From: Kineothrix alysoides
Lineage (GTDB): Bacteria; Bacillota; Clostridia; Lachnospirales; Lachnospiraceae
Direction: 5' to 3'
DNA length: 64,000 nucleotides
Assembly (NCBI RefSeq): GCF_000732725.1
Contig: NZ_JPNB01000001.1
Location: 682,001-746,000, forward strand
The translations under genes and the position numbers were made by a program. The notes beneath the pieces were generated by a model. That model was not told the origin of the DNA. It made no database searches and saw only the letters and a list, made by a program, of their open reading frames with translations. Shown piece by piece: positions 34,930-58,373 of the stretch; positions within the stretch are counted from its first letter, which is position 1, and the number at the start of each line of letters is the position of its first letter.

Positions 34930-35276
34930 CTAAGTAGAATAAATGATCGCGGCTGCAATTCCGAAAGGAAGCAGGTGAGGAAAGTCCGGGCTTCATAGGG
35001 CAGGATGCCGGATAACGTCCGGTGGAGGTGACTCCAAGGATAGTGCAACAGAAATGAACCGCCCCGTCATGCGGGGTAAGGGTGGAAGGGCAGTGTAAGA
35101 GACTACCGTTCGTCTGGTAACAGGCGGAGCCATGTAAACCCCATCCGAAGCAAGACCGAATAGAAAGCGATAGGCCGGCCCGGCCTGCTTTCAGGTGGGT
35201 CGCTAGAAATTGCCGGCGACGGCAATTCAAGATAGATGATCATTCACGACATAACCCGGCTTATCGTTCTGCTTAG
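34930..35276 (+). ncRNA. rnpB: RNase P RNA (rnpB)
   Basis: Catalytic RNA of RNase P, which matures tRNA 5' ends. Hallmarks are GAGGAAAGTCCGGGC, the CAACAGAAATGAACCGCC region, AAGGGTGGAAGGGCAG, GTAAGAGACTACCG and GGCGGAGCCATGTAAACCCC. The P1 helix is CTAAGTAGAA at the 5' end with TTCTGCTTAG at the 3' end, which sets the boundaries. Its size of about 347 bases is normal. Confidence 0.95.
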
Positions 35277-35333
35277 TATGAAAATAAATAAAAATGTAAC
35301 TGTTCAGTACCTTGGCGGTTGCATAAGATTAAA

Positions 35334-49289: not shown

Positions 49290-49598
49290 GAGAAATAAAC
49301 GACAAACCTATGAGAAAGAGTAGTAGGTATCAGGAACTATTGCAGAGAGCCGTCGGTGGTGGAAGGCGGTATAGGGAATCTTACTGAATGGACTTTCGAG
49401 GCTGGGCTGAACTTATAGTAGGTACCGGCGGGATTCGGACCCGTTATCCATCCGACGTGTATGACAGTACATGAATAAAGTGGTCGATGCCTATGGCATG
49501 TCAATTTGAGTGGTACCGCGATAATAAGGCTTATATTAAGTTTACTTATGTTAAGTTTATTACCGTCTCAAGCAATTAGCTTGAGGCGGTTTTTTTGT
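49290..49598 (+). promoter_or_regulatory. T-box leader with terminator
   Basis: tRNA-sensing leader. Stem I base ACCTA/TAGGT (49306 and 49419) encloses a specifier loop with AGTA on the 5' side and GAAC on the 3' side. The AGAGAGCC region and the T-box sequence TGGTACCGCG (49511-49520) follow. The terminator is ACCGTCTCAAGC / GCTTGAGGCGGT plus seven T residues (49562-49597). The base after TGG is T, so the sensed tRNA should have discriminator A. Tryptophan is then unlikely. The codon after GAAC reads TTA (Leu); TAT (Tyr) is offset by one. Confidence 0.92.
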
Positions 49599-54277: not shown

Positions 54278-54379
54278 CTATCGCGTTATTTTATCGCTAT
54301 ACTCTGCACAATGTTTCACCGGTATGGATTGTACAGAGCGCAGCTTCCTTGTAAGCTGATTGGTTATATAATAGTTCAT
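54278..54379 (-). CDS. Leader peptide ORF (33 aa) of the ABC-F gene
   Basis: Starts at an ATG with AAAAGGAG eight bases upstream and encodes 33 residues (MNYYITNQLTRKLRSVQSIP at the start, ending YSDKITR). It lies about 30 bases after the transcription start and before two terminators. This is the usual place of a drug-sensing upstream ORF in ABC-F, Erm and cat leaders. Ribosome stalling here would be the signal. Confidence 0.65.
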   Translation of the reverse strand: MNYYITNQLTRKLRSVQSIPVKHCAEYSDKITR

Positions 54380-56242: not shown

Positions 56243-56677
56243 CTATTTTGCAGTATCTTCGTATTTTTCTTCACAGTATTTGCAGCGGTAAACTTCTTTT
56301 TTCTCATCCGCAAGTACGAAGACATGAGGAAGCCCCTGTTCGATGGAGGTGATACATCTTGGGTTCTTGCATTTGATAACGTTTTTGATTTCCTTAGGGA
56401 GCACCAGCTCCTTTTTGTCTACGATTTCACCGTCTTTGATTACGTTTACCGTAATGCAGTGATCAATAAAGGCGAGAACATCCAAGTCCAGCGTATCGAT
56501 ATCGCATTCCACCTTGAGAATGTCCTTTTTTCCCATCTTGTTGCTTTTCGCATTTTTTATGATGGCCACGGTGCAGTCCAGCTTATCCAGTTGAAGATGA
56601 TGATATAAGGAAAGACTCTTGCCTGCCTCGATATGGTCGAGAACAAAGCCTTCCTCAATTTTTCCTACATTTAACAT
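56243..56677 (-). CDS. pyrI: Aspartate carbamoyltransferase regulatory subunit
   Basis: Allosteric partner of PyrB, 144 residues. The N-terminal nucleotide-binding part begins MLNVGKIEEGFVLDHIEAGK. The C-terminal zinc domain has CKNPRC and CKYC (four Cys). It is co-transcribed with pyrB, 22 bases apart, as in pyrBI of enteric bacteria. Confidence 0.96.
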   Translation of the reverse strand: MLNVGKIEEGFVLDHIEAGKSLSLYHHLQLDKLDCTVAIIKNAKSNKMGKKDILKVECDIDTLDLDVLAFIDHCITVNVIKDGEIVDKKELVLPKEIKNVIKCKNPRCITSIEQGLPHVFVLADEKKEVYRCKYCEEKYEDTAK

Positions 56678-56699: not shown

Positions 56700-57614
56700 C
56701 TATACTTGAATTTCTAACAATGTGAGTATGAGTGCCATCCGGACGTACACACCGTATTGCACCTGCTTGAAATATGCGGCGCGGGGATCGTCGTCGATTT
56801 CCACAGAAATTTCATTGACGCGGGGAAGCGGATGGAGCACGAGCATATCGCTTTTGGCCAGATCCATTTTTGGTTTATCCAATATGTAGAAGTCTTTTAA
56901 TCTTACGTAATCCTCTTCGTTGAAGAATCGCTCTTTTTGTACACGGGTCATGTATAGGAAATCCAGGCTCGGCATGATTTCCTCCAGACGAATGACCTCT
57001 TCATAAGGGATGTTCTTTTCCTTCAGCATATCGGTGAGATAATCGGGAACCTTCAGTTCCTCCGGTGATATAAAGATGAAATGGATATCAGGATAGCGCA
57101 TCAAGGCGTGGATAAGAGAATGAACGGTCCGCCCGAATTTCAAATCTCCGCACAAACCGACAGTAAAGTTCTCAATCTTTCCTTTTAAAGAGCGGATGGT
57201 GAGTAAATCGGTAAGTGTCTGGGTCGGATGCTGATGACCGCCGTCTCCGGCGTTGATGACCGGAATGGAGGATTTGCTGGCAGCGACCATTGGAGCACCC
57301 TCCTTTGGGTGACGCATAGCGCAGATGTCCGCAAAGCAGGAAATGACGCGTATCGTATCGGAAACGCTTTCTCCCTTGGATGCGGAAGAGGAGCCGGCAT
57401 CGGAAAAGCCGATAACACTTCCTCCCAAATTCAGCATTGCAGATTCAAAACTAAGCCTCGTTCGGGTGCTCGGTTCGTAGAAGCAGGTGGCGAGCTTTTT
57501 TCCGTCACATGCGTGAGCATATTTAGCCATGTTGTGCTCGATATCATTTGCGAGGTCGAAGAGCTTATCAAGTTCTTCGGCAGTAAAGTCGAGGGGGCCC
57601 ATTAAATGTCTCAT
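56700..57614 (-). CDS. pyrB: Aspartate carbamoyltransferase catalytic subunit
   Basis: Catalyses carbamoyl phosphate plus aspartate to carbamoyl aspartate, the first committed step of pyrimidine synthesis. The carbamoyl-phosphate site is [15 protein letters not shown], and the [18 protein letters not shown] and [12 protein letters not shown] motifs are complete. I chose the ATG at 57614 with GGAAGGAT upstream, giving 304 residues. The leader upstream has a terminator and a leader peptide (separate entries). Confidence 0.97.
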
Positions 57615-57670: not shown

Positions 57671-57701
57671 ACAAAATCGAAGAGAAATAATTCTCTTCGA
57701 C
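57671..57701 (-). terminator. pyrBI attenuator terminator
   Basis: Read leftward: TCGAAGAGAA, a four-base loop, TTCTCTTCGA (perfect 10-bp stem), then TTTTGT. It starts two bases after the stop codon of the leader peptide and about 57 bases before pyrB. Confidence 0.85.
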
Positions 57702-57809
57702 TTAAAATTTAACTATGAACGATATAGATGAAACGAATAGGAAAAAAAATAAATGGCTAAGCGGCATCTGGGAAAATCTGAAACATTCGTTATGCGCTAT
57801 TACTGCCAT
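57702..57809 (-). CDS. PyrL-like leader peptide of pyrBI (35 aa)
   Basis: AAGGAGG lies six bases before the ATG. The 35 codons encode MAVIAHNECFRFSQMPLSHL followed by a Phe-rich FFFLFVSS stretch and an ISFIVKF end. The Phe codons give a U-rich message, including eight U in a row (57749-57742), upstream of the attenuator stem. In E. coli, pyrL works this way: low UTP stalls polymerase in the U-run, so the trailing ribosome prevents terminator folding. No such sequence is expected in a PyrR-type system. Confidence 0.75.
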   Translation of the reverse strand: MAVIAHNECFRFSQMPLSHLFFFLFVSSISFIVKF

Positions 57810-57861
57810 GGGATACCTCCTTAACTCGTTCATGAAAAATATGTGCTCTAAAATTTATTCT

Positions 57862-57890
57862 ATGATACCACAATGGTTCTTCTCTTTCAA
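57862..57890 (-). promoter_or_regulatory. Promoter of the pyrBI leader
   Basis: Read leftward: TTGAAA (57890-57885), 17-base spacer, TATCAT (57867-57862). Transcription starts about 45 bases before the leader peptide. Confidence 0.7.
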
Positions 57891-58001
57891 TGTAAAAACT
57901 TATAAAAATTTATTAAATCTATGAAAAGGCTTTGCATTATGATTAGCTATCTTATATAATAAATAAAGTGTGAAATAATGAGGAAAGGAATGGTCATTAT
58001 T

Positions 58002-58373
58002 ATGGAATATGTAGAACGAAAAAGGCTTTTGTTTTTTGGACTTCCATGGACATTTACGAAATATACGGTGGGAGAAGAATATATTGTGGTCAACAGCGGC
58101 TTGTTTAGGACTTATGAGAATGACTGTTACATGTATAAGGTTCAAGACGTTGAGCTTCAGGCCACTTTATTAGAAAGAATATTCAGACTGGGAACCGTTG
58201 TGTGTTTTACCGGAGATACGACCCATCCTAAGTTGCAGCTCATACATATCAGACATGCGAAGGAAATCAAGGACTACATTCTGAAGACTTCTGAGGAAGC
58301 GAGAAGAAAAAGAAGAACCCTCAACACGCTTGATATAAGCTCAGGGCTAAGTGGTGATGAGGACATTTTATAA
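58002..58373 (+). CDS. Bacterial PH-domain-like protein (123 aa)
   Basis: Single beta-rich domain (YVERKRLLFFGLPWTFTKYT, then YKVQDVELQATLLERIFRLG) with the pattern of DUF304/YdbS-type PH domains but without membrane helices. The start is ATG 58002 with AGGAAAGGA upstream; an earlier ATG overlaps that ribosome site. It is divergent from pyrBI. A terminator follows. Confidence 0.7.
   Translation: MEYVERKRLLFFGLPWTFTKYTVGEEYIVVNSGLFRTYENDCYMYKVQDVELQATLLERIFRLGTVVCFTGDTTHPKLQLIHIRHAKEIKDYILKTSEEARRKRRTLNTLDISSGLSGDEDIL

Follow-up and report, generated by a model that had tools for sequence, protein, structure and literature searches.

A candidate PyrL-like attenuator of pyrBI in Kineothrix alysoides and its probable descent from a nitroreductase-family gene

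The region upstream of pyrB in Kineothrix alysoides (Lachnospiraceae) raises the question of how pyrBI is controlled in a Gram-positive host in which a short leader open reading frame (ORF) and a hairpin precede the operon, a layout reminiscent of the E. coli pyrBI operon with its PyrL leader, reportedly described by Roland, Liu and Turnbough in 1988. The window considered here is the whole stretch of DNA that was analysed, 64,000 nucleotides of contig NZ_JPNB01000001.1 (assembly GCF_000732725.1, positions 682,001 to 746,000 of the forward strand). No earlier description of PyrL-type control in Lachnospiraceae was found in titles and the beginnings of abstracts, within a partial coverage of the literature, and both the family-wide picture of pyrB leaders and the gene-to-leader origin proposed below are new.

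The promoter, the strong Shine-Dalgarno (SD) sequence and the 35-codon U-rich leader ORF with its run of eight U, followed by pyrB, had been reported in a first-pass annotation and are all found on the minus strand (Table 1). The leader ORF is predicted to encode MAVIAHNECFRFSQMPLSHLFFFLFVSSISFIVKF. The perfect 10-bp terminator stem of that annotation is likewise present (TCGAAGAGAA/TTCTCTTCGA, then TTTTG), at a distance of 62 nt from pyrB. The leader stop codon had been placed two bases before the stem; the sequence gives one base, and added A-U and G-U pairs make the stem overlap the stop.

Table 1. Features of the pyrBI leader region and its neighbourhood, in window coordinates
Feature	Position	Strand	Basis
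Sigma-70-type promoter TTGAAA-17-TATCAT, extended -10 TG	57862..57890	-	sequence scan
AAATTTT at predicted transcription start; candidate AAUUUU slippage start	57850..57856	-	sequence
Shine-Dalgarno AAGGAGG of leader ORF	57816..57822	-	sequence
PyrL-like leader ORF, 35 codons and TAA stop (57704-57702)	57702..57809	-	sequence, composition
U-rich tract UUUAUUUUUUUUCC, presumed UTP-sensitive pause region	57740..57753	-	sequence
U8 run in leader ORF, beginning 49 nt before stem	57749-57742	-	sequence
Attenuator hairpin, 10-bp core (57700-57691 with 57686-57677), loop of 4	57677..57700	-	folding, sequence
Attenuator U tail, TTTT, then G	57673..57676	-	sequence
pyrB, aspartate carbamoyltransferase catalytic subunit	56700..57614	-	Pfam, NCBIfam TIGR00670
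pyrI, aspartate carbamoyltransferase regulatory subunit, after pyrB	56243..56677	-	Pfam, NCBIfam NF002063
Divergent bPH_2-domain gene, also a neighbour in many nitroreductase-bearing relatives	57978..58373	+	Pfam

The leader thus has an SD-led ORF, its translation predicted from ORF, SD and position, that reaches a terminator directly before pyrBI, with a U-rich tract shortly upstream of the hairpin. The coding sequence is 42% T, compared with a mean of 26.5% in 14 long ORFs of the window, and this content is equalled by 7 of the 6216 35-codon windows that those ORFs provide; the best 30-mer before the stem holds 20 T, and pyrimidines make up 61% of the leader. Phe accounts for eight of the 35 residues, including the segment FFFLF. 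When 42 terminator-like sites in 96 kb of the same genome (the window and regions L223-L225) were scored, an SD-led ORF of 12-70 codons ended at three of them, these being the pyrB leader, the tail of a long ORF and a 50-aa ORF.

No antiterminator was detected in the window leader, where the terminator 5' arm pairs with leader sequence at -5.7 kcal/mol, compared with a mean of -7.7 for shuffles and -15.9 with its own arm. The leader therefore ends in an intrinsic terminator free of a competing antiterminator, although its U tail is short, which is why a simple terminator scan did not flag the hairpin. The fold of the whole leader (z -1.9) was uninformative, as much of it comes from the terminator. 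A pause hairpin was also considered and is a lead at most: in the window's clade the start-codon region pairs with the segment preceding the U tract, at ordinary energies except in the same-genus locus L086 (z -2.6, 5 of 300 shuffles as low), and none of six leaders outside the genus has an unusually stable fold before the U tract.

The comparison covered 195 pyrB upstream regions, 186 of them distinct once nine duplicates, judged by the last 200 nt, had been removed; they comprise the window, a first set of 80 loci, 14 same-genus loci and 100 family genomes, which are part of at least 206 with a match and are weighted to close relatives. Classification by script gave 82 loci with a nitroreductase-family gene and a terminator, 15 with a terminator and no nitroreductase gene, 14 with a nitroreductase gene and no strong terminator, 72 with neither, and three too short to class (L032, L048 and L060). 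Some assignments were made manually: L033, L035 and L179, whose hairpins are weak (-7.7, -7.1 and -6.5 kcal/mol), were put into the terminator class by hand, L183, classed as 'none' by the script owing to a long terminator loop, was shifted to the leaders by eye, and L082, with an SD under the script threshold, was scored as a leader by eye.

Ten of the 186 distinct regions (the window, L084, L004, L086, L033, L035, L082, L139, L179 and L183) have a short leader ORF whose end is at the terminator, in it or beyond it; two of these were recognised by eye and three have weak hairpins. In six loci the leader stop precedes the stem, by 1, 12, 1, 3, 10 and 5 nt; in three others it falls within the hairpin, and in L086 past it. 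The peptides are unlike one another. As far as the ORFs tell, what is kept is a ribosome predicted to reach the hairpin, and the peptide sequence is not kept. The most T-rich 30-mer within 70 nt before the stem has 18-23 T in nine leader loci against a median of 11 in the 82 nitroreductase loci (p 4e-7, with L082 picked by eye, L183 excluded and the loci related); L183, with 13 T, is not strongly U-rich, unlike the other nine. By script alone, an SD-led short ORF accompanies a strong hairpin (at most -11 kcal/mol) in 5 of 12 loci, compared with 8 of 75 others lacking a nitroreductase gene (p 0.015, uncorrected for kinship, and four of the five leader loci form one clade). An earlier form of this association (9/15 versus 1/72, p 9e-8) was withdrawn, being biased by the hand-placed L033, L035 and L179 and the eye-judged L082 and L183. 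Seven changes of the leader label are needed on a pyrB tree with 109 rows, at least five of them being forced by well-supported branches, while the placement of L139, L179 and L183 is unsure owing to long branches.

Within the genus, the -35 and -10 elements and the hairpin stem are invariant in all four leader loci, and the U run varies (8, 7, 6 and a split tract). Diverged relatives retain the SD, the start codon and a stop close to the stem, except that in the same-genus L086 the ORF continues through the terminator. The closest relative, L084, has 7 T in its U run, and with the frame shifted its ORF stops 12 nt short of the stem; the old frame still reaches a stop codon at the stem, and the U7 is either a real slippage site or a sequencing (homopolymer) error. 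Conservation across relatives had been suggested as a check at the outset, and the design of ORF plus terminator does recur in other lineages while the peptide changes; a terminator kept after loss of the ORF and U run, which would have spoken against the idea, is not the pattern seen, although U-run length itself is not fixed.

Attenuator control is not universal in the family, because 72 of the 186 loci fell into the class that lacks both an attenuator and a nitroreductase gene (L183, among them, does have a leader and hairpin). Eight Butyrivibrio loci (L051, L063, L064, L067, L070, L072, L076 and L078) have pyrB with no upstream nitroreductase gene and no strong attenuator by script. Outside the family, an order sample of 56 genomes contained 24 with a match, five of which belong to Lachnospiraceae; among the upstream regions of the other 19, read by eye and some with a badly placed start, L285, from another family of the order, is the sole possible case of a U-rich leader ORF upstream of pyrB, with its stop in or near the terminator loop.

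Another arrangement is a structural gene that ends a few nucleotides before a terminator with pyrB next, as found in the 82 nitroreductase loci; in its arrangement this is the rph-pyrE type. The upstream gene belongs to PF00881 (E 4e-34, L018 copy); its matches to NCBIfam models stay under the cut-offs of those models. Its stop lies a median of 6 nt from the stem, compared with 21 nt from pyrI to its own terminator (31 of the first-set 80 loci, those in which a terminator was found; p 4e-5, optimistic like the other p values on these distances given that the loci are related) and with 23 nt for 15 ordinary ORFs of the K. alysoides genome. In 41 of the 82 loci the stem is at most 40 nt from the pyrB start, which leaves no room for a promoter, and therefore pyrB must be reached by readthrough. 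Leu TTA is frequent in the last ten nitroreductase codons (93/165, versus 142/842 elsewhere; for example in L018 and L088), but such synonymous U-enrichment at the 3' end was rejected as proof, since the 14 terminator-free loci show it too (12/28 versus 29/149).

The window's leader appears to be connected with this gene. Sixteen same-genus genomes, including that of the window, were searched and 15 gave a full pyrB match; four of these loci have the leader and 11 the nitroreductase gene with a terminator (three of the 11 duplicate first-set loci). In the pyrB tree the four genomes with the leader group as a single clade (100/98) surrounded by nitroreductase-bearing relatives, and the window genome has no nitroreductase ortholog, its only match being a 22%-identity one elsewhere. 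An alignment with eight same-genus nitroreductase loci matches the promoter, SD and start codon of the leader to those of the gene; the promoter of L094 lies outside the aligned stretch and was seen in a separate reading of that region. The leader N-termini of the window (MAVIAHNECFRF) and L084 (MAARAHNECFKF) resemble those of nitroreductases, for example MTAKECIKGRRS. In a comparison with 92 distinct nitroreductase N-termini, the score of the leader was reached by 0 of 200 shuffles in the window, 1 of 200 in L084, 6 of 200 in L086 and 20 of 200 in L004, so that the match is significant in two members of the window's clade and not in L004, and none of the six leaders outside the genus gave a significant match. 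Of the four clade members, all but L086 have the bPH_2 gene beside the leader, and this gene is found at 50 of the 82 nitroreductase-terminator loci, though within 1300 nt in just 3 of the 11 same-genus ones; the leaders of L035 and L139 also adjoin a bPH_2 gene, despite having no N-terminal likeness to nitroreductase.

Because of the nested clade, the missing ortholog, the aligned promoter, SD and start codon, the N-terminal likeness and the bPH_2 neighbour, the leader is most simply read as the stump of an upstream nitroreductase-family gene, of which promoter, SD and start codon would have been retained and the remainder lost. An independent evolution of the leader system had been raised as a possibility on first inspection, and gains support here together with a named route.

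PyrL-type, UTP-sensitive attenuation is the best-supported reading of this comparative sequence evidence, with the locus as an analogue and not a homologue of E. coli pyrBI. We consider it probable that pyrBI is governed by a ribosome-coupled transcription attenuator working like E. coli pyrL, and that the leader is what remains of a collapsed nitroreductase-family gene, which would have the same role in relatives as rph has for pyrE. RNA polymerase would transcribe the leader from a start some 47 nt upstream of its ORF. With plentiful UTP it would clear the U-rich tract before the ribosome arrives there, the 10-bp hairpin would form and transcription would stop. When UTP is scarce, polymerase would hesitate in the tract and the ribosome would catch up to the stop codon, where its footprint would block the hairpin, so that pyrBI could be transcribed by readthrough; such a response would be the basis of regulation in vivo. 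The first-pass annotation had claimed that this clade senses UTP by leader-peptide attenuation, and its attenuation part holds up well, there being no PyrR element and a recurring design, while the sensing of UTP itself is what we infer.

For E. coli, the available portion of PMC10135430 describes polymerase limited for UTP as pausing on pyrL, so that the ribosome can arrive early enough to keep the hairpin from forming. Intrinsic terminators of E. coli are suppressed by ribosomes that stand at a stop codon close by, and when the distance from stop codon to terminator was shortened from 28 to 5 bp, termination fell from ~90% to <10%, a repression of termination that was abolished by uncoupling translation, according to the accessible part of PMC4824070. 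Coupling in the window's clade is not assured, because the polymerases of many low-GC Gram-positives outrun ribosomes (PMC13323073, as excerpted); a polymerase that outruns ribosomes by default would favour termination until scarce UTP slows it in the U tract. The short U tail, the miss by the terminator scan, the three weak hairpins among ten leaders and the frame shift of L084 count against an attenuator.

The hairpin could instead be an ordinary intergenic terminator that ends an upstream transcript, with pyrBI served by its own promoter downstream and the leader ORF a meaningless gene stump. The stem and pyrB are 62 nt apart in the window, which may accommodate a weak second promoter, the leader does resemble a gene remnant, and genes of this genome can end near terminators, 3 of the 15 ordinary stop-to-stem distances being at most 12 nt. 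A promoter scan, however, gave no sigma-70-like minus-strand site between hairpin and pyrB, and the gap is 22-28 nt in L033, L035 and L139, which, like that of half the nitroreductase loci, is too little for a promoter and an SD. The persistence of SD, start codon and stop near the stem (or run-through) in diverged relatives and the recurrence of short leaders in unrelated form also argue against this explanation, which we judge unlikely. Rho-dependent attenuation, in which an untranslated pyrimidine-rich leader loads Rho, translation prevents loading and UTP has no direct role, would suit the leader's pyrimidine content, and purine-poor RNA is described as inviting Rho in species with runaway transcription in the part of PMC13323073 at hand; the conserved intrinsic hairpin at the leader end speaks against it and makes it a rather improbable mechanism.

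That the leader senses phenylalanine supply, as an amino-acid-sensing leader peptide, is suggested by its Phe residues, but is very improbable in view of the lack of alternative antiterminator pairing in the window leader and of a stop codon 1 nt from the stem, not well before it, amino-acid attenuators keeping >20 bp from leader to terminator in the portion of PMC4824070 available. Three of the other leaders moreover have a Phe count of 2-3, the gene to be controlled belongs to pyrimidine synthesis, and U-rich codons yield Phe, Leu, Ile and Ser anyway. Control by PyrR, as in Bacillus, has hardly any probability left. It is the usual control of Gram-positive pyr operons in the accessible text of a review (PMC13328217), and PyrR elements are present in other families of the order. 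An Rfam search found no PyrR RNA element in the leader or in the K. alysoides genome, as a first-pass suggestion to look for such a motif required, and at a permissive threshold the leader gave just sub-threshold matches to unrelated families. PyrR RNA was detected in 0 of 60 Lachnospiraceae genomes versus 10 of 38 from other families of the order, and PyrR protein above cut-off in 1 of 60 (G054, at a contig edge) versus 13 of 38, with none in the K. alysoides genome. A PyrR-like motif is visible by eye upstream of pyrB in L283, L286 and L289, from other families of the order. Elsewhere in the window, Rfam matched a T-box leader (49301-49536), uup RNA (54301-54348) and RNase P RNA (34931-35279).

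A second UTP sensor may lie at the transcription start. The predicted start A-A-UUUU lies 7-12 nt after the -10 element in the window and three relatives, and L183 has AAUUU at the same distance; starts of this kind occur at 5 of 10 leader promoters compared with 1 of 71 promoters of the 'none' class, a contrast that involves just two lineages, differing search ranges and predicted starts. UTP-dependent reiterative initiation operates at E. coli pyrBI, codBA and carAB. The use of UTP-dependent slippage at such starts by E. coli pyrBI and related genes is also reported in the available portion of PMC6245113. Slippage at the AAUUUU start is a possible second UTP sensor in the window's clade. In a joint reading, pyrBI of this family would be controlled through the coupling of polymerase with a ribosome that translates any ORF found upstream; ancestrally this would be a whole nitroreductase gene in the style of rph-pyrE, and the window's clade would have a collapsed U-rich leader with the old promoter, SD and start codon and an added AAUUUU slippage sensor. 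We offer this reading tentatively and lean slightly against it. If true, the whole two-layer control of E. coli would be matched by convergence, in bacteria whose coupling is thought to be poor.

Should the ribosome-coupled attenuator be real, it would offer a natural test of transcription-translation coupling in Gram-positives, where polymerase is often thought to outrun ribosomes, and would document how leader peptides can arise when an upstream gene decays after its translation has taken on a regulatory part. It would also provide a mechanism of pyrimidine control for a large family in which PyrR is hardly detected. Two other pyr regions of the same genome were looked at. Upstream of pyrF (L224, contig C1, just above 2051136, minus strand) an ORF stop lies in the loop of a AGGCGTTG/CAACGCCT hairpin followed by TTTG, an arrangement present in 6 of 11 same-genus pyrF regions inspected (16 searched, five not located by script), and pyrFE may have an rph-like attenuator. 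The long leader of pyrC (L223, contig C2) has hairpin-like inverted repeats by eye and no Rfam match at the gathering threshold.

Among known systems, the E. coli pyrBI operon, read here in the MG1655 sequence, shares with the window the target genes, an SD-led leader ORF, a U-rich stretch before an intrinsic terminator and an AAUUU-like start. The first-pass annotation had called the E. coli arrangement exactly the same, which is true of the general design and not of the ORF ends: PyrL has 44 codons and runs through the terminator, whereas the window leader, with 35, stops 1 nt before the stem. PyrL also has a lower T content (31% versus 42%), 14 rather than 20 T in its best 30-mer, and as its longest T run before the stem a UUUUU located 29 nt upstream of it, compared with a U8 that begins at 49 nt. 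The window further differs in its Gram-positive host and in the apparent nitroreductase-gene origin of its leader, and homology of the peptide to enteric PyrL was not found (BLASTP E 0.73 over 9 residues), in agreement with the initial view that the two are unrelated. In the E. coli rph-pyrE attenuator the upstream structural gene serves as the translated leader and ends a few nucleotides before the terminator; a TGA lies 6 nt before the stem in MG1655 DNA, which we take to be the wild-type rph stop, and the nitroreductase-pyrB median is also 6 nt. The upstream gene and the target are different ones, and in the window's clade the upstream gene has apparently shrunk to a leader. With the PyrR-dependent attenuators of Bacillota (RF00515) the locus shares control of a pyr operon by transcription attenuation, as predicted here, but the window leader lacks the PyrR element, the genome lacks an over-cut-off protein, and translation would be used in place of an RNA-binding protein. 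The histidine leader peptides of Bacilli, located upstream of hisS and hisZ and proposed to have originated repeatedly from random sequence (PMC2965389, in the portion available), are likewise a case of leader peptide attenuation in Firmicutes; they sense an amino acid, whereas the window leader, with neither an antiterminator nor a pathway-linked amino-acid run, would respond to UTP.
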